Position numbers and translations under genes: made by a program. Positions 40,069 to 48,349 of a stretch of DNA of 64,000 bases are shown here, in pieces (positions within the stretch are counted from its first letter, which is position 1; every line of letters starts with the position of its first letter). The notes beneath the pieces were generated by a model. It did not search any database. It had not been told where the DNA came from and saw nothing but the letters and a program-made list of their open reading frames with translations. The DNA comes from a bacterium. Its GTDB lineage: Bacteria > SZUA-182 > DTGQ01. The stretch covers positions 81,246-145,245 of the forward strand of contig JBFLZW010000061.1 in the NCBI GenBank assembly GCA_040755755.1, read 5' to 3'.

Positions 40069-40131
40069 CAGGAGCCAGAAGTCAGGAGCCAGAAGAAAAG
40101 CGTTTCTCCTGACTTCTGACTCCTGTTTTTT
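40069..40131 (+). terminator. Repeat-derived terminator after the HEAT gene
   Basis: CAGGAGCCAGAAGTCAGGAG (40069-40088) pairs with CTCCTGACTTCTGACTCCTG (40106-40125), one G-T pair, then T6. The arms are built from the same GTCAGGAG/CCAGAAG units as the elements at 46951 and 54754. Confidence 0.75.
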
Positions 40132-40140
40132 CCATCTGTT

Positions 40141-40175
40141 CATTCCCCTCATACTGGAGAGGTATGAGGGGAATG
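40141..40175. terminator. Hairpin downstream of YGG protein gene 1
   Basis: Perfect CATTCCCCTCATAC / GTATGAGGGGAATG, 25 bases beyond the stop of the minus-strand YGG gene. Nearly the same stem (CCATTCCCCTCACC / GGTGAGGGGAATGG) follows the YGG gene at 47217. Confidence 0.6.
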
Positions 40176-40199: not shown

Positions 40200-41072
40200 T
40201 TAAATAACCGCCGGCGTCAATGCCGCCGTGAAAGAGCCATTTGAAGCAACGGACGAGCCTTGGGTCATGGTAAAGGTACCGAACATCGCGGTGGACGAAG
40301 TCAGCGTACAGGCTACATCGAGCCGGATAGTCTGACCGGCAGCGTTAAGACCGGTTCCGGAAAGGATTACCTGATTGTTGAGCACCGTTCCGGTCACATC
40401 GATCGCTGATCCGAGAATCGGATGGTTGACGAGCTGAACAAACCCGGTCACGTTGCTCACGAGTACCGGATCCTGAACGATATTGATGGTTATGGGTCCA
40501 TTGGCTACAACCACCGCCCCTTTGGTGAAGATATTGGACCATGTGCCATCCCACGTTCCAAACTGTTCGGCCAGACCGTATCGTAAACCGCCCAGGCCGC
40601 CATAGAGTCCCAGGCCGCCATACAGACCGCTCAGTCCATAGAGCCCGCCAAGACCGCCATACAGACCGAAACCATAGAGGCCGCCGCCATAGAGCCCGCC
40701 AAGACCGCCATACAGACCATACAGCCCGCCGCCATAGAGGCTTCCGTAGAGCCCTCCGCCGTAGATACTGCCAAGACCGCCATACAGCCCGCCAAGCCCG
40801 TAGAAGCTTCCGCCATAGAGCCCGCCGCCGTAAAGGCCGCCATAAGCACCACCATATAACCCAATACCACCATATAAACCGCTTAAACCGCCATAATAGA
40901 CGCTGCCCAAAGAGGTTCCGCTGCCCGCGTAGCTGCCGATGCCATAGAGACCACCATAATAAGCTTGAGCAGTTTTCTGAGGAAGAATCAGAGCCAACCC
41001 GACCAGGAACGAGGAAACAACCATCAAGAGCCGAGAATGAGAAGGAGAACCTGAAATCCGCATATTCATCAC
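40200..41072 (-). CDS. YGG-repeat secreted protein 1 (Gly/Tyr/Leu-rich)
   Basis: 290 aa (start at GTG 41072, or one of two ATGs within 10 bases). Signal peptide ending TAQA, then YYGG. Residues ~38-170 are Gly/Tyr/Leu/Ser tandem units (GGLYGG, GSFYG, YGGGLYG). The conserved C-terminal ~120-residue domain starts GLRYGLAEQFGTWDGTW, continues NGPITINIVQDPVL, VTGTVLNNQVILSG and ends FTAALTPAVI. It is probably beta-rich. The low-complexity part resembles structural Gly/Tyr proteins. I know no named family. It lies 164 bases downstream of YGG gene 2, probably in the same transcript. Confidence 0.8.
   Translation of the reverse strand: MMNMRISGSPSHSRLLMVVSSFLVGLALILPQKTAQAYYGGLYGIGSYAGSGTSLGSVYYGGLSGLYGGIGLYGGAYGGLYGGGLYGGSFYGLGGLYGGLGSIYGGGLYGSLYGGGLYGLYGGLGGLYGGGLYGFGLYGGLGGLYGLSGLYGGLGLYGGLGGLRYGLAEQFGTWDGTWSNIFTKGAVVVANGPITINIVQDPVLVSNVTGFVQLVNHPILGSAIDVTGTVLNNQVILSGTGLNAAGQTIRLDVACTLTSSTAMFGTFTMTQGSSVASNGSFTAALTPAVI
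40590..40910 (-). repeat. YGG-coding tandem repeats, gene 1
   Basis: Short DNA units (9-15 bases; plus-strand CCGCCATAGAGCCCGCCA-like) encode GGLYGG. All units keep the frame. Confidence 0.8.
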
Positions 41073-41236
41073 CGTACCAATCTGAACCTTTATGGAAAAA
41101 GCTGTTTTTACCTATTGCCAGGAGAGCGATATCTCATCCTGCCTGTTTAAATTCCAGAACTCATCGTCTTACCAGAACGCATACCGGTTTCCCCGGAACT
41201 GCACGCTCGACGGCCAGATCCATAGGGAATTATCCG

Positions 41237-42049
41237 CTAAATTACCGGTGTTGTCAGGCTGGCGGTAAAAGACCCTGTTTCAAGTACAAGTGTCCCGCTC
41301 TTGCCCAGGGTGTAATTGCCCTGCATCTCGGTGGAAGAAACCAGGTTTGCGACAATATCAAGGATGACCGCGCCGCCAGTCCCGGCATAGGAACCGTTCA
41401 GGTATACCTGGTTGTTCAGTACCGTGCCGGTGACTTCCACCAGCGCAGGCAGGACAGCATTGCCAAGCAACTGGACATATCCGTACACGTTACTCGTCAA
41501 TACCGGATCCAGGATAATGTTTATGGTGATGGGACCACTGGCGATGGAAGAATACCAGAGACCTTCCCAGGTTCCGGCTTGTTCAGCCAGGCCATACCGT
41601 AAGCCACCGAGTCCGGACAGGCCGTAGAGCCCGCCAAGACCGCCATACAGGCCGCCGAGGCCATAGAGGCCATAAAGGCCATAAAGGCTGCTGCCATAAA
41701 GCCCACCATAGAGCCCGCCATATAAGCCATACAGGCCGCCGCCATAGAGGCTGCCGTAGAGTCCTCCGCCGTAGATACTGCCAAGACCATAGAGGCCCCC
41801 ATAGAGCCCACCATATAAACCGCCCAAACCGCCATAATAGACGCTGCCAAGGGTACTTCCGCTGCCCGTGAAGCTGCCGATGCCATACAGGCCGCCGCCG
41901 TAGAGCCCGCCATACAGTCCACCGTAGCCGTAGCCATAGTAAGCCCAGGCATTCCCCTGAAGTGAAATCATACTCAAAGTAAATAAAAATACGAAAGAAA
42001 TAACCAAAAGTTGAAATCTGGAAGGGAAATTCATAATCCTCTTTTCCAT
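41237..42049 (-). CDS. YGG-repeat secreted protein 2
   Basis: 270 aa from the ATG at 42049 (TAGGAG five bases upstream); an in-frame ATG at 42118 lacks an SD. Signal peptide with LLVISFVFLFTLSMISL, ending in NAWA. The GGLYGG repeat region is at ~30-155, with SLYG variants. The C-terminal domain (GLRYGLAEQAGTWEGLW ... GPITINIILDPVL ... VEVTGTVLNNQVYLNG ... SFTASLTTPVI) is homologous to the other two YGG proteins. First gene after the sigma-54-like site at 42327. Confidence 0.8.
   Translation of the reverse strand: MEKRIMNFPSRFQLLVISFVFLFTLSMISLQGNAWAYYGYGYGGLYGGLYGGGLYGIGSFTGSGSTLGSVYYGGLGGLYGGLYGGLYGLGSIYGGGLYGSLYGGGLYGLYGGLYGGLYGSSLYGLYGLYGLGGLYGGLGGLYGLSGLGGLRYGLAEQAGTWEGLWYSSIASGPITINIILDPVLTSNVYGYVQLLGNAVLPALVEVTGTVLNNQVYLNGSYAGTGGAVILDIVANLVSSTEMQGNYTLGKSGTLVLETGSFTASLTTPVI
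41600..41945 (-). repeat. YGG-coding tandem repeats, gene 2
   Basis: The same short in-frame GGLYGG-coding units as in genes 1 and 3. Confidence 0.8.
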
Positions 42050-42164
42050 TGCACTCCTAGCCTCTTTATGTAATTCTCGCCACATCCGCTGGTTGTTAAC
42101 CGAAAACCCGTTCTGCATTCTGAAGTCCTGCCACTAACCACCTCTCTTCTGAAATCCGGCTGTA

Positions 42165-42174
42165 TGCACCTCCC
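42165..42174 (-). promoter_or_regulatory. Standalone SD-like GGGAGGTGCA in the YGG leader
   Basis: A strong SD-like core about 115 bases before the YGG2 start. The YGG3 leader has AAGGAGGTGCA at 48132-48142 and the three-repeat gene has AAAGGAGGTGGA at 11500-11511. Each is separate from the gene's own SD. Confidence 0.3.
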
Positions 42175-42326
42175 TTCATTACACCAATGAGGCAATCTTT
42201 TTTGGCTTCAATATCCATCGAGAAAGTCCTGGAGCGGCAATACCGGATTCTGCCACCGGCAGCCCTCCTTCCAGATAGACTTCGGGCACCTTCAGCATGA
42301 GCCGAATCTGCCTGCCTTTTAAGATC

Positions 42327-42342
42327 AGCAATATTGATACCA
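42327..42342 (-). promoter_or_regulatory. Sigma-54-like promoter of YGG genes 2-1
   Basis: Minus strand TGGTAT-CAATA-TTGCT: GG and GC cores with the 5-base spacer. The whole 16-mer, plus the preceding CC, is identical to the site before YGG gene 3 (48200-48215). Confidence 0.6.
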
Positions 42343-42594
42343 GGTCATATAAGGACAGTGTCATTACTGAGGACAGCGCCTTTCCCCTCGCCACCTTGGG
42401 GTGGGATGGCTGGCATGGAGCCCCTGGGGCAAGTGAGGGGCGTTTGTGGTGGATAGTCCTTAACTTAATGGCATTGAACCACAAAATGAAGGATGCCAGG
42501 TTAGCTGGCCTTGAAAAGGATACTTTTTGTCATAAAAAGTATAAACAATCTGTATATAATCTATTCCGAGGTCAAATGGAGGCCACACGAGAAG

Positions 42595-42628
42595 CGTGGA
42601 GGCGAGACATTCCATGTTCGCCTCCACG
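42595..42628 (-). terminator. Hairpin after the Csp-like gene
   Basis: CGTGGAGGCGA (42595-42605) / TCGCCTCCACG (42618-42628), a perfect 11-base stem just beyond the minus-strand stop at 42640. No T-run. Confidence 0.55.
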
Positions 42629-42639
42629 GCACTGTATCC

Positions 42640-43056
42640 TTAGAGTTGCAGTGACGACAGCAGCCTGTTGCAGGCATCTTCGCACTGTCGGCAATAGTCA
42701 GCGCACATTCGACAGTGATCGTATTTACTGGCGTGTTCCTGACACTCCTGCCTGCATCCCTGACAGGCCATCGCACATGCCTGAAGCTGGCTGCGGAGCA
42801 GGCTCATGGGCGGTTCCGTCTGACGGCAAAGCAAGGTGCCGGTCAGATTACAGACATCGGCACAGTCCAGATTTATCCGGATGCAGCGGATCAGCGATTG
42901 GATGTCCTTTTCGCCGATGCAGGCATCGGCGCAACTGCTGCATGCCTGGGCCGCATTGCTGGTAGCCTGGATGCATGAAATCAGCGCATCCCTGTCCATC
43001 TTCATCTGTGACATGCGGGGGTGCACCTTGAGCATATCTTGCATATGATGGCTCAT
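42640..43056 (-). CDS. Four-helix-bundle, Cys-rich copper-storage-like protein (DUF326/Csp)
   Basis: 138 aa with 17 Cys spaced along four predicted helices (CSSCADAC, CIRINLDCADVC, CAMACQGCRQEC, CRMCADYCRQCEDAC). This matches the copper storage proteins Csp, where inward-facing thiols bind many Cu(I) ions. No signal peptide, so it is like cytosolic Csp3 rather than exported Csp1. The start has GGAGATAAAC before the ATG. Its role is probably copper buffering or detoxification. Confidence 0.88.
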   Translation of the reverse strand: MSHHMQDMLKVHPRMSQMKMDRDALISCIQATSNAAQACSSCADACIGEKDIQSLIRCIRINLDCADVCNLTGTLLCRQTEPPMSLLRSQLQACAMACQGCRQECQEHASKYDHCRMCADYCRQCEDACNRLLSSLQL

Positions 43057-43237
43057 TGTTTATCTCCTTCCACGTTATGGAAACTCGACTCCTTCCATAT
43101 AATTCCTGTTTCCGATCACCTCATGATCCGTTCCATTATTCTTACAGGATCAATCTTACTGTCTCAAAATTACCTTCCAACCTACTATTTCGGCTTCCAG
43201 GAATTCTCCTCCCTACCACGTCATGCTGAATTGATGG

Positions 43238-44992
43238 TCATCGAGAGGCTTGGTTATTGTGGTTATGATCGGCGCTGATGAGATAAGCGTTTTCCAGGTA
43301 CTGGAGCACCATGCGCTGAGCATTGAAAAACGATGCATTCAGGGCAATAGCCGAGCGCATGACCCCGGCAAAGGCATTCTGCCGTCCATAGAACATGGGA
43401 ATGATAATATGTTCCAGCTTATTGTAGAGAAATACATAATCCTTGGAAGGATTGCTTTCAAGATCCCAATCATCTCCGATGGACCATCCGGTGACTCCCT
43501 CCACATGTCCCTCGATCCACCAGCCATCCAGAATACTCAAGCTGGGAACACCATTCAGCGCGGCTTTCATACCGCTTGTACCGGAAGCCTCCTGTGGCTT
43601 CTTGGGGGTATTTACCCATAAGTCCACCCCGGCACACATCAGCCTCGCCAGCGCCATATCATATTCCTCAAGGTACACCACCGGCACAATTCCTTTCAGC
43701 GCATTGGCAGCCTCGAAGATGCGCCTGATCAGTGCCTTGCCGCTCTCATCGCGCGGATGCGCCTTGCCTCCATAAATTATCTGCAGAGGGCCAATTTGCT
43801 GAGCTATCATTTTCAGCCGGTCCATATTGGAAAACAACAGGTCCGAACGTTTGTATGCCGTGGCCCTGCGGGCAAAGCCGAGGGTCATGACCGAGGGATT
43901 CAAACGTACGCCGCTGCGGCGATCCACCTCAGCCAGAAGCTCCCGCTTGGCCTCGATATGGGCTTCCCTGATCTTTTCAAGGGGGATGCTGATGGCATAG
44001 CGCAGATAGAGATTATCATGACGCCATTCGGTGATATAATGGTCATACAGATTGCAGAAAGGCATCGATGTCCAGGTGCCGGCATGAACCCCGTTGGTGA
44101 TGGAGTTAATGGGGTAGTTGGGGAACATGCTCCGGGAGATTTCCTCATGGCGCATGGAGACTCCATTGATATAGCGTGAAAAAAAGAGAGCCAGATATGA
44201 CATGTTCAGGGTGTCGTTTGTACAGCAGCGGGTATTCTGCAGGAAAGAGGCCGCTTCCTCTCCCAATACCCGGCGGGCCATTTCCATGGGAAAGATATCA
44301 TGCCCGGCTGGTACCGGTGTGTGAGTCGTGAACACACATCTATGCCGGATCGCTTCGATGTCGGCAGCGGCAATAGTATGGAGGCCGTTCCCTTTATGGC
44401 GTTCCTCCAGGAGGGCCAGGGTAAGGAGAGCCGAGTGACCCTCGTTCATATGGTAAGCCTGCACTCTCCGGTGCCCCAGGGCACGGAGCATGGCTACACC
44501 ACCCAGCCCCAGCACCGCCTCCTGACACAGGCGATAAAAGTCGTCACCGCCATACAGGGAGTCGGTAAGGGTTCTATCCCATTCACTGTTTTCATCCAGT
44601 AACGTATCCAGAAAGTAGACAGGCACAATATGGCCTGACAGCCCATGCAGGGTATAGCGCCAGGCGCGGATATTCACCGTTCGGCCCTCGATATTGATCG
44701 ATACCCGGGCTGAGAGAGGTTCCAGGAATTCCTCCGGTGACCAGACAGCAGGGCTCTCGGTCTGGTTCCCCCGATCGTCGAGATGCTGCCTGAAGTATCC
44801 CTTGCGGTGCAGAAGGGTCACTCCGACCATCGGTATGCTTAAATCAGCGGCAGCACGCAAGGTGTCCCCCGCCAGCACTCCCAGGCCGCCGCTATAGGTA
44901 GGCATGGCCGGATCAAGGCCGACCTCCATGGAAAAATAGGCAACCAGAGAAGTAAATAAATATATCTGTGACATAGGACTAATCATAATCAA
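43238..44992 (-). CDS. glgP: Alpha-glucan (glycogen) phosphorylase, short GT35 type
   Basis: 584 aa. Phosphorolysis of alpha-1,4-glucans to glucose 1-phosphate using PLP. N-terminal VAYFSMEVGLDPAMPTYSGGLGVLAGD and C-terminal RRATAYKR, IYGGKAHPRD, VNTPKKPQEASGTSGMKAALNG (PLP Lys in SGMKAA) and LDGWWIEG. The length is that of the short bacterial/archaeal form without the long N-terminal extension. AGGAGG lies five bases before a TTG at 44992 and 11 before an ATG at 44986; either may be used. Probably functions with the GH57 enzyme. Confidence 0.92.
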   Translation of the reverse strand: MIMISPMSQIYLFTSLVAYFSMEVGLDPAMPTYSGGLGVLAGDTLRAAADLSIPMVGVTLLHRKGYFRQHLDDRGNQTESPAVWSPEEFLEPLSARVSINIEGRTVNIRAWRYTLHGLSGHIVPVYFLDTLLDENSEWDRTLTDSLYGGDDFYRLCQEAVLGLGGVAMLRALGHRRVQAYHMNEGHSALLTLALLEERHKGNGLHTIAAADIEAIRHRCVFTTHTPVPAGHDIFPMEMARRVLGEEAASFLQNTRCCTNDTLNMSYLALFFSRYINGVSMRHEEISRSMFPNYPINSITNGVHAGTWTSMPFCNLYDHYITEWRHDNLYLRYAISIPLEKIREAHIEAKRELLAEVDRRSGVRLNPSVMTLGFARRATAYKRSDLLFSNMDRLKMIAQQIGPLQIIYGGKAHPRDESGKALIRRIFEAANALKGIVPVVYLEEYDMALARLMCAGVDLWVNTPKKPQEASGTSGMKAALNGVPSLSILDGWWIEGHVEGVTGWSIGDDWDLESNPSKDYVFLYNKLEHIIIPMFYGRQNAFAGVMRSAIALNASFFNAQRMVLQYLENAYLISADHNHNNQASR

Positions 44993-45442
44993 GAGTTCCT
45001 CCTGAGAGCAACCTGTTCATTCGGAAAATCCTGCCAAGCAGGAAGTCTCAATCAGTAATTCTTTAGAGTGATCGTCAGTTTTACCCATAATCAGGTACAG
45101 AGACATTTTTGGGGGTGCATGGTCTTGGGGAAGGGGGCAAGCGGCATCCTCCTTCCATGTCCCTGTGTCACTGTCTTTTGCCGGACCTCACTTTTTCATT
45201 GACAGAGCGGCGTTGAGGTCATATGATTAGGCTGTATCTTAAGGAGTTATCCCCTGAAGCTCACTTCACCCAAGGATGTACGACTCAGAGCGAAAAGCAG
45301 GTTTTTCAGCAAATATCGTCAAGGCCAACTTTTCCTCCCCGGTGCATTTCACTGTTTCCCGGTTTCAGGGAAGAATCTAATGAGGATAGAAGCCCGGCGG
45401 GCTTATCATTTTGCCCGCTCAACCGCAAGCGCGGGGTCTTGA
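44993..45442. other. Divergent gap between glgP and the second sigma-54 activator
   Basis: No gene supported; an 82-codon plus-strand ORF (45223-45471) has no SD or motif and overlaps the activator. I see no strong promoter. A GC-rich stem CCCGC/GCGGG sits just before the activator gene (~45415-45437). Confidence 0.5.
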
Positions 45443-46852
45443 ATGAAGTATATCCTTGTCGTTCTCAATAATCAGGAAGCCTGTAAAGCAATTCATGACT
45501 GTCTCGGTCAGGAGTACAAAGTTGATGTCATCTGCGACCCGGAATCCTGTCTTGAGGCATGCCGGAAGAGGCGGTATGAGTTTATCTTTATCGATATTAT
45601 CCTGCTGCGCGGATTAACGGCCGAAAACGGCTATAATGACTACCGGAAAAAACTCCAGCCGCTCTGGCAGATCTACCCGGCCATGGAAATCATTGTCCTG
45701 TCACCCCAGGAAATGATCAGGGACGCTGTCAATGCCGTAAAAGCGGGGGCCAGCAATTATCTTACCTATCCCTTGAATCCGGACGAAGTGAGATATGTGA
45801 CCGAAAGCATCTGCGAATCGATCAAGATGCAGTCGGAACTTGACTATCTCCGTGACCGGTTCTTCTGGCAGAGTGATTCGCTCGAAGTAATCCGGACCAA
45901 CAGCCCGGTAATGAAAACTGTTTTCGATAAGGTCAAATTGGTTGCCCCAACCAGAACAACGGTCCTGCTCACCGGAGAGACAGGAACGGGGAAGGGGATC
46001 ATAGCCAAACTGATTCACCGGCACAGTAACCGATGCGATGATCAATTCATCAGCGTCCACTGTGGAGCGATTCCCGACACCCTGGTGGAAAGCGAGCTGT
46101 TCGGGCATGAAAAAGGGGCCTTTACCGGAGCGGTTCAGAGAAAGCTCGGCAAGTTCGAAATTGCCCAGGGAGGGACGATTTTTCTGGACGAGATCGGCAC
46201 TGTCACTGCCTCAGCCCAGATCAAGCTGCTGCAGGTGCTGCAAGACCGCAGCTTTAACCGGCTCGGAGGAGAAGAAAGCCTGGTGGCTGATGTGAGGGTT
46301 ATCGCCGCTTCAAACATCGATCTGAAGAAACTGCGGGATGAAGGTGCTTTCAGGAGCGATCTGTATTACCGGCTGAATGTGTTTCCCATCGAGCTTCCTC
46401 CGCTGAGAGATCGTATCGAGGATATTCCCCTGCTGGTCGAGGTCTTTTTGAAAAGGCTGAACAAACTCAACCAGAAAAAAATCCATGACCTGCATCCCAG
46501 AGTCATGAAAGCCTTCGAGGAATATCCCTGGCCGGGCAATATCCGCGAGCTTGAAAACCTCATCGAACGTGCCTATATCCTGGAAACCTCCGCTATTCTT
46601 ACCCCGGAGAGCTTTCCCAGTGAGCTGTTCACCTCCGATACCCCCGGTCCACGGATATCCCTGGATACCTCGCTTACCCTGGCCGAAGTGAGAGGAAGAT
46701 GCATCGATGATATCGAACGTCACTACCTGAAACAGCTCCTGGCCCTGCACAAAGGCAGAATCAGCAGCACTGCTCAGGCTGCGGGAATCAGCACCCGTCA
46801 GCTCCATAAGCTGTTGAGCAGGTACGGCATCCGGAAGGAAGAGTTCAAGTAG
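45443..46852 (+). CDS. NtrC-type sigma-54 activator with atypical receiver
   Basis: 469 aa. The receiver-like domain (1-~125) keeps D51 (FIFIDIILL) and a switch-like Ser (IVLSPQ), but the acidic Mg-binding pair is NN (residues 9-10, VVLNNQE) and the Lys position reads LTYPLN, so phosphorylation is doubtful. The AAA+ domain is complete: GETGTGKG, GAFTGA, TIFLDEIGT, YRLNVFP. A Fis-type HTH (RISSTAQAAGISTRQLHKLL) follows. It can probably open sigma-54 promoters under non-phosphorylation control. It neighbours YGG gene 3, whose leader carries a sigma-54-like site. Confidence 0.93.
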   Translation: MKYILVVLNNQEACKAIHDCLGQEYKVDVICDPESCLEACRKRRYEFIFIDIILLRGLTAENGYNDYRKKLQPLWQIYPAMEIIVLSPQEMIRDAVNAVKAGASNYLTYPLNPDEVRYVTESICESIKMQSELDYLRDRFFWQSDSLEVIRTNSPVMKTVFDKVKLVAPTRTTVLLTGETGTGKGIIAKLIHRHSNRCDDQFISVHCGAIPDTLVESELFGHEKGAFTGAVQRKLGKFEIAQGGTIFLDEIGTVTASAQIKLLQVLQDRSFNRLGGEESLVADVRVIAASNIDLKKLRDEGAFRSDLYYRLNVFPIELPPLRDRIEDIPLLVEVFLKRLNKLNQKKIHDLHPRVMKAFEEYPWPGNIRELENLIERAYILETSAILTPESFPSELFTSDTPGPRISLDTSLTLAEVRGRCIDDIERHYLKQLLALHKGRISSTAQAAGISTRQLHKLLSRYGIRKEEFK

Positions 46853-46950
46853 TATTCTTCAGCGCAACCTATTGCATTAATCAGGTCCTGGTGGGTAAAT
46901 TTTATACAAGGTGCATAAAATATACTATAAACCTATAAACGGCTTAGAAC

Positions 46951-47089
46951 TGAACTTTTCCAGAGGAGCCAGAAGTCAGGAGTCAGAATTCAGAATTCAG
47001 AAGAAGGTATGGACCATCTTAAATAAGGAGTTCTTTTACCTTCTTCTGGCTCCTGGCTCCTGACTTCTGACTCCTGAGCAAAAAGTTCA
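46951..47089. mobile_element. MITE-like palindromic element (GTCAGGAG family), intact
   Basis: ~139 bases. Terminal TGAACTTTT (46951-46959) and AAAAGTTCA (47081-47089) are exact inverted repeats. Inside, GAGGAGCCAGAAGTCAGGAG and further repeats mirror CTCCTGACTTCTGACTCCTG across an AT-rich centre. No coding capacity. The copy at 54754 shares CTATAAACGGCT(T/G)AGAACTGAACTTTTCCAGAGGAG, given here as one consensus with one variable base. Confidence 0.75.
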
Positions 47090-47153
47090 ATATTCACCCG
47101 TTCGCAGTATAAATCAGGGGCTTTCAGGATGGCTGGAGATATTGAAGAATAGT

Positions 47154-47186
47154 CCATTCCCCTCACCCGTGAGGTGAGGGGAATGG
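47154..47186. terminator. Hairpin downstream of YGG gene 3
   Basis: Perfect CCATTCCCCTCACC / GGTGAGGGGAATGG, 31 bases beyond the minus-strand stop. The same stem type follows YGG gene 1. Confidence 0.6.
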
Positions 47187-47216
47187 ATAAAGATACATGC
47201 CCAAGGGGCGTTAATA

Positions 47217-47990
47217 TCAGATAACCGGAGTGGTCAATGCCAATTGGAATGATCCGGTTTCCCTTATACTGGAGGCCTGGGTCAGGGTATAATTACCCGT
47301 CATGCTCGTTGTAGAGGTAAGAGTCCCAACGATGTCAAGAGTATAGGTTGTAGTGCCAAGACCAATCCCTTTACCGGAAATAATAATCTGGTTGTTGAGT
47401 ATGGTACCGGTTACATCAACCAGAGCTGACAGATAGGTATTCCCCAGCAGTTGAGCATAACCATATATGACGGTGGTAAGTACCGGATCCTGGCCAATAT
47501 TTAAGGTCATGGGTCCGCTCGTAAGGCCGGAAGACCATGTTCCCGTCCAGGTTCCGAACTGCTCAGCCAGGCCGTATCTCAGTCCGCCGAGGCCGTACAG
47601 GCCGCCATAGAGGCTGCTGCCATAGAGCCCGCCATACAGGCCGCCGTAGCCATAGAGCCCACCATACAGACCACCGTACAGGCCACCGTACAGGCCGCCA
47701 TACAGGCTGCTGCCATAGAGCCCGCCATACAGGCCGCCGTAGCCATAGAGCCCACCGTACAGACCGCCATACAGACCGCCATACAGACCACCATACAGGC
47801 CGCCGTACAGGCCGCCATACAGACCGCCATACAGGCTGCTGCCATAGAGCCCGCCATACAGGCCGCTGCCATACAGGCCGCCGTAGCCATAGCCATAATA
47901 TGCCTGAGCAATTCCTGCGGGCATTACGGTAAAGAAAAACAAAAGAACAGAAGACAGAATGAAAGATTTAGATTTGCTGATGTGCGACAT
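47217..47990 (-). CDS. YGG-repeat secreted protein 3
   Basis: 257 aa from the ATG at 47990 (GAGGAGGAG seven bases upstream); the longer ORF to 48029 lacks an SD. Signal peptide SSVLLFFFTVMPAGIAQA, then YYGYGYGG. The repeat region (~27-135) is the most regular of the three, a run of GGLYGGLYG with SSLYGG and YGYGG breaks. The C-terminal domain GLRYGLAEQFGTWTGTW ... GPMTLNIGQDPVL ... VDVTGTILNNQIIISG ... SFQLALTTPVI is shared with proteins 1 and 2. It has its own sigma-54-like promoter. Confidence 0.8.
   Translation of the reverse strand: MSHISKSKSFILSSVLLFFFTVMPAGIAQAYYGYGYGGLYGSGLYGGLYGSSLYGGLYGGLYGGLYGGLYGGLYGGLYGGLYGYGGLYGGLYGSSLYGGLYGGLYGGLYGGLYGYGGLYGGLYGSSLYGGLYGLGGLRYGLAEQFGTWTGTWSSGLTSGPMTLNIGQDPVLTTVIYGYAQLLGNTYLSALVDVTGTILNNQIIISGKGIGLGTTTYTLDIVGTLTSTTSMTGNYTLTQASSIRETGSFQLALTTPVI
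47585..47890 (-). repeat. YGG-coding tandem repeats, gene 3
   Basis: Near-identical 12-base and longer units (CCGCCATACAGG, plus strand) with two longer duplicated blocks containing the SSLYGG segment. Prone to in-frame expansion or loss. Confidence 0.85.
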
Positions 47991-48349
47991 ACCGATACTC
48001 CTCCTCAACCGCTTTTCCAATTCCCACACTAACAGTCTTAAAAAACCAAACGATCATAAAAACCACACTTCTCAAGAGAATCCCGAATTAACCTCAAAAA
48101 GAAATTTCAGCTATTTCCGCTATCTTTCCCGTGCACCTCCTTCTCGTATTCTCGATAAAGTTTTAACAAACCGTAGAGCAGCAGCCGGGGATAAAACCAA
48201 GCAATATTGATACCAGGAACCTGCCTCACGAAATAATCGACTTGCGAAAAATTAAAGTTGCCTGAGAAAGAGCACTATGCTAAGGTATAAGTTATCTGTT
48301 CGCCGATGGCTTATTGCTATGGATAATACTAAGGGTGCTTCCGGAGACT
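47991..48349. other. Leader of YGG gene 3 and gap to the Mut7-C gene
   Basis: Holds the SD-like AAGGAGGTGCA (48132-48142, minus) and the sigma-54-like site (48200-48215, minus). No gene supported. Confidence 0.6.
48200..48215 (-). promoter_or_regulatory. Sigma-54-like promoter of YGG gene 3
   Basis: TGGTAT-CAATA-TTGCT on the minus strand, identical to the site at 42327-42342. It lies ~210 bases before the ATG. Confidence 0.6.

Follow-up and report, generated by a model that had tools for sequence, protein, structure and literature searches.

PEP-CTERM genes are dispersed over the genome and encode secreted surface proteins; they have long upstream regions that combine an upstream motif with a sigma-54 box, and PrsK/PrsR belong to the same system (PMC1569441). 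PepA of Aquincola is secreted and RpoN-dependent, and it promotes floc formation (PMC9850573). Among structural materials, the squid suckerin-19 peptide GLYGGYGV forms stiff hydrogels (PMC6839752), and our literature search on GLYGG or Tyr/Gly-rich bacterial proteins returned nothing relevant beyond this peptide. Here, we describe a family of predicted secreted proteins in a bacterium of the GTDB lineage SZUA-182. Three of its genes lie in the window, i.e. the whole stretch of 64,000 nucleotides that was analysed (contig JBFLZW010000061.1, positions 81,246 to 145,245), and positions without another label are those of this window. We consider it fairly probable that these genes belong to a dispersed family, co-regulated in part, whose products are exported as matrix or coat proteins and join a suckerin-like self-associating repeat to a barrel used for assembly or anchoring. 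The family, its fold and its promoter are well supported by the sequence, whereas the material function is what we infer from them. The three genes of the window are as follows.

40200..41072, minus strand: gene 1, predicted secreted Gly-Tyr-Leu repeat protein with a C-terminal barrel (open reading frame, translation and domain placement); repeats at about 40593-40961 and barrel at 40203-40592 on the same strand (domain placement).
41237..42118, minus strand: gene 2, same architecture as gene 1 (open reading frame, translation and domain placement); likely start at 42049, repeats at about 41609-41941 and barrel at 41240-41608 on the same strand (domain placement).
47217..48029, minus strand: gene 3, same architecture as gene 1 (open reading frame, translation and domain placement; barrel and full-length models); likely start at 47990, repeats at about 47589-47900 and barrel at 47220-47588 on the same strand (domain placement).

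The first-pass annotation had placed three genes here, each with a signal peptide, a Gly/Tyr-rich repeat and a homologous domain, and the open reading frames and their translations bear this out. At the N-terminus, the three proteins have a signal peptide with A-x-A at its end, and YYG comes next. The repeat regions are 115-134 residues long, with 42-44% Gly, 19-25% Tyr and 20-22% Leu; each of these regions has two charged residues, and each protein has 16-22 LYG units. The resemblance in composition to known structural proteins, also proposed from the first reading, is real and is close to the Gly-rich modules of suckerins. The C-terminal domain has about 120 residues, with a pairwise identity of 55-61% across the three genes, and terminates in (A/T)PVI.

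This shared domain does unite the genes in one family, but a family of three, as first described, is too small: about 24 members are dispersed over the genome. We searched for the domain by profile in 386 genomes, nine from this barely sampled phylum and about 377 from elsewhere. The genome studied here (G000, 5.26 Mb) has 24 copies, a genome of the same genus (G001) has 20, and three genomes of the same order (G002, G003 and G004) have 9, 3 and 7, respectively. The other four genomes of the phylum have no copy, and none was found in the about 377 sampled genomes outside it; one weak match there (G074) did not recur with a deeper profile and was dropped. When two conserved peptides were searched against 84,980 species genomes, a search that reaches close relatives only, the sole match was JAILZY01, which is G001. 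A plasmid search with the domain gave no match. By these searches, the family is lineage-specific, dispersed, unnamed and known here from one order only.

All of the 19 domains compared between G001 and G000 are reciprocal best partners, with 67-92% identity and a ratio of non-synonymous to synonymous substitution rates (dN/dS) of 0.044-0.205. The expansion of the family therefore predates the split of the two species, and judging from these ratios the copies are maintained by purifying selection. The length of the repeats evolves fast (115 vs. 72 residues in the orthologues of gene 3), though the Gly-Tyr-Leu composition stays much the same in most members. In addition, some members continue beyond the barrel with long Pro/Ala/Val tails. 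Genes 1 and 2 of G001 (L043 3266-5121) share 342 identical bases from near the start of the repeats, against 26 for the pair in G000, which we read as a sign of recent gene conversion. At another locus (L036 2760-7553, G000:C17), three family members in tandem are followed by five small secreted Pro/Tyr-rich proteins, and this arrangement is conserved in G001 (L051).

The C-terminal domain had initially been linked to no named family, and this still holds at curated cut-offs after profile searches of the domain. No match passed the cut-off in Pfam and NCBIfam, none of the 44 members matched Pfam Avidin at E 0.05, and a profile search of the PDB gave chance-level matches only, with no sequence relative. 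TamB, a ComC sandwich, LIC20153 and similar weak matches fell far below the cut-offs and were rejected. An AlphaFold2 model made from an alignment of 44 relatives predicts eight strands, with a mean predicted local distance difference test (pLDDT) of 89.8 and a predicted template modelling score (pTM) of 0.81. The full-length model of gene 3 shows a signal helix and the barrel but gives no confident structure for the repeats. Foldseek returned no match at E 0.001 or better with the barrel model. The best Foldseek and VIA-align matches include designed beta barrels, streptavidin and other avidins, with lipocalins among the Foldseek matches; the VIA Z is 13.5 for 8ah9, 12.5 for monomeric streptavidin and 11.7 for the OmpA transmembrane domain. 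The architecture, an eight-stranded meander barrel, matches avidin, but many unrelated barrels match equally well. Seven residues are invariant in the barrel (G16, W18, G43, G61, G72, G98 and G112). On most strands, one face is conserved and consists of apolar residues or glycine, while the opposite face is variable and polar (Thr/Ser/Asn/Gln/Asp/Glu), as in a soluble barrel whose core is apolar. We are confident that the domain, as modelled, is an eight-stranded barrel, avidin- or lipocalin-like in architecture, which does not imply kinship with avidins.

The second line of evidence concerns the promoters.

42327..42342, minus strand: sigma-54-type promoter TGGTATCAATATTGCT before genes 2 and 1, unchanged in G001 (flanks 0.40/0.35 identical).
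48200..48215, minus strand: sigma-54-type promoter TGGTATCAATATTGCT before gene 3, unchanged in G001 (flanks 0.55/0.53 identical).

The two transcription units indeed carry the same sigma-54-like 16-mer, as the first-pass annotation had reported, and TGGTATCAATATTGCT has exactly two copies in the whole 5.26 Mb genome. Across five genomes, its four exact copies all precede family genes, namely genes 2 and 3 of G000 and their homologues in G001; the possibility of a dispersed repeat was therefore rejected, and the 16-mer is specific to the family. Its core, TGGTAT-N5-TTGCT, agrees with the -24/-12 pattern (GG-N10-GC in a TGGYAY-N5-TTGCW context). The boxes with one mismatch in G000 (one) and G001 (two) also precede family genes, one of these genes being split over two contigs; G002 and G004 have one such box each, not before family genes. 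For the box score, about 13 of the 44 upstream regions reach the top 1% of shuffled sequences or come close to it. Between G000 and G001, three gene pairs have identical boxes and three more have boxes at 0.81-0.88 identity, with flanks at 0.34-0.55, and the changes leave GG and TTGCT intact. Sigma-54 itself (rpoN) is found above the PF04552 cut-off in G000-G007. Taken together, the sequence makes a convincing case for the 16-mer as a sigma-54 promoter. Gene 1 has no sigma-54-type box of its own and probably shares its transcript with gene 2.

Two further observations concern this box. In one orthologous pair (L034, L048), the box TGGTATCAATATTGAA has a TTGAA end; it is unchanged between the species, without the GC of the -12 element, and is off consensus. 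There is also a second secreted paralogous family (NLPPYNTLWPLWSxALSP...; L108 1618-2217 on G000:C1 and L118 2032-2619 on G000:C22). Boxes with two mismatches lie upstream of both of its members, and the regulon may thus extend to further secreted proteins.

Upstream of the box of gene 2, we found a possible activator-binding site.

42528..42536, minus strand: candidate enhancer (activator-binding) site TTTATGACA within the palindrome ATACTTTTTATGACAAAAAGTAT; the gene 2 box lies 194 bases downstream (from the sequence).

Allowing up to one mismatch, TTTATGACA is present in the orientation of the box and 81-241 bases upstream of it in seven upstream regions, which represent four orthologous groups. 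The pattern TTATGACA-(128 to 188)-TGGTATN5TTG has four matches in five genomes, all before family genes, and the control has none; the spacing was picked from those same genes, so this test shows specificity and not an independent discovery. Gene 3 has the box and lacks an element of the TTTATGACA type. We retain ACTTTTTATGACAAAAAGT as a candidate sequence for activator binding.

45443..46852, plus strand: NtrC-type sigma-54 activator, a neighbour and probably not the cognate regulator (domains; no orthologue in G001).

A sigma-54 activator had been noticed beside gene 3. The gene is present, but its role as dedicated regulator was rejected: no orthologue was found in G001 (best match 39%), though both promoters are unchanged there. 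A close orthologue (71%) exists only in G004, a genome from a different family within the order, and the contig there has no genes of the barrel family. The genome has about 33 sigma-54 activators and, in 5.26 Mb, chance would place one or two of them within 6 kb of the about 19 family loci. The sequence comparison thus makes the neighbouring activator probably a bystander. In its receiver domain (window 45443-45800), the acidic pair (VVLNNQ) and the conserved lysine are seemingly lost, so that it may work without phosphorylation. A second activator (L125 6039-7493, L126 4695-6134; G000:C87) is 82% identical in G001, lies within a few kilobases of family genes in an order that both species share and adjoins another secreted low-complexity protein. 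No strong box was found at the family genes near it, one of which is cut by the contig end. This activator is the first candidate regulator and still only a lead, because chance alone puts one or two activators near family loci. The cognate activator is likely to be an enhancer-binding protein other than the neighbour, acting via TTTATGACA-type sites.

It is likely that such an enhancer-binding protein on TTTATGACA-type sites and the sigma-54 RNA polymerase switch on the box-bearing subset of the family together. After export, the Gly-Tyr-Leu region would self-associate by tyrosine stacking and transient beta structure, and this self-association could surround the cell with a gel, a coat or a fibre; the fibre, film or silk-like material considered at first is a possible product of this kind. 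The best support from other systems comes from the stiff hydrogels of the suckerin-19 peptides (GLYGGYGX, among them GLYGGYGV; PMC6839752) and from the part that PepA, secreted and sigma-54-dependent, has in flocs (PMC9850573). The barrel would stay folded as an assembly-control or anchoring module, and paralogues of differing repeat length and tail would tune the material. A more specific version is put forward tentatively, as somewhat less than an even chance: a bacterial biomaterial system, known from one order only, in which sigma-54 controls a subset of about twenty Gly-Tyr-Leu proteins of the suckerin type; these would co-assemble as a cell coat or fibre, their new barrel domain serving assembly control or anchoring.

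Several points weigh against a co-regulated matrix or coat family. About half of its members have no clear sigma-54 box. Some have Pro/Thr/Ala-rich chains in place of the Gly-Tyr-Leu repeats, and the repeat is therefore not the sole defining part. The barrel fold is predicted from an alignment of 44 sequences, and the TTTATGACA motif was spotted by eye before testing. LptD is present in the genome, so that a route across the outer membrane is needed for export, and none was found for the family proteins. Expression, localisation and assembly of these proteins are likewise predictions, drawn from sequence.

The alternative that survives best, which we judge rather unlikely, is that the barrel is the working part, i.e. 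that of a secreted small-ligand or glycan-binding family with an avidin/calycin architecture, the Gly-Tyr-Leu region being a flexible sticky tether. Conservation is concentrated in the barrel (dN/dS 0.04-0.21), other N-terminal chains occur in some members, and the architecture matches that of ligand-binding barrels. However, the conserved face consists of apolar residues and glycines, and no conserved polar pocket is evident save an acidic residue at position 110. Moreover, most members keep the Gly-Tyr-Leu composition despite changing length, which would be needless for a mere tether. Less probable still is a C-terminal sorting or export domain that takes varied low-complexity passengers to the cell surface. 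Here, the lack of a dedicated transporter linked to the family genes and the size of the domain, which exceeds that of usual sorting tags, have to be set against its position behind unrelated low-complexity chains in different paralogues and against the sigma-54 control of dispersed single genes, as for PEP-CTERM genes (PMC1569441); in addition, the barrel is not always terminal, because a few members have long Pro/Ala/Val tails after it. Finally, a small outer-membrane barrel displaying the Gly-Tyr-Leu region is very improbable: the cell has an outer membrane (LptD), the barrel has eight strands and the OmpA transmembrane domain is among its structural matches (Z 11.7), but an apolar conserved face opposite a polar variable one is the soluble-barrel pattern, the proteins end in PVI without a terminal aromatic residue, and the match to avidins and designed soluble barrels is at least as good.

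Two hairpins complete the features of the locus.

40141..40175, minus strand: hairpin 3' of gene 1, possible terminator or mRNA-stabilising stem (CATTCCCCTC...GAGGGGAATG), conserved after gene 1 in G001.
47155..47185, minus strand: hairpin 3' of gene 3, same kind (CATTCCCCTC...GAGGGGAATG), with a variant stem after gene 3 in G001.

The similar hairpins seen from the outset after genes 1 and 3 are the sole two copies of that sequence in the genome. A search of Rfam gave no match above threshold. Intergenic repeats of the GTCAGGAGCCAGAAGTCAGGAG type, with inverted copies, lie near the ends of genes 1 and 3 (window 40070-40130 and 46963-47075).

On the preferred reading, exported matrix or coat proteins, the family members are candidates for the material of an extracellular coat not described before. 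The secreted family itself has no name; its fold is predicted with confidence, its promoter is sharply defined and a regulon is likely. The family is assigned to none of the PEP-CTERM, suckerin and avidin groups. With avidin/streptavidin and calycin-like barrels, it shares the barrel architecture, the size and a GTW-type first strand, but the structural matches have 9-16% identity and the barrel here ends a low-complexity chain. The likeness to PEP-CTERM proteins lies in the regulatory plan, with dispersed genes of secreted proteins, an upstream motif and a sigma-54 box; an exosortase and two PrsR-type regulators are also found above cut-off in this genome. However, genes 1-3 end with (A/T)PVI, without PEP motif, membrane helix or basic tail, and none was found in the other members read. 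The upstream element also looks different, being TTTATGACA here, whereas the PrsR-type motif 1, compared by its 3' end only, ends with TTTACA, and the shared domain here is a barrel. A PEP-CTERM-like regulatory plan would thus be used for another kind of surface protein. With suckerins of squid sucker ring teeth (PMC6839752), the family shares Gly-Tyr-Leu repeats with GLYGG units, secretion and a multigene organisation, but the Ala/His-rich modules are absent from genes 1-3 and did not turn up in any member that was read. The family described here is bacterial and has a folded C-terminal barrel, and the resemblance is one of composition that does not imply homology. If the repeats assemble like their squid counterparts, a material of the suckerin type would have arisen independently in bacteria.

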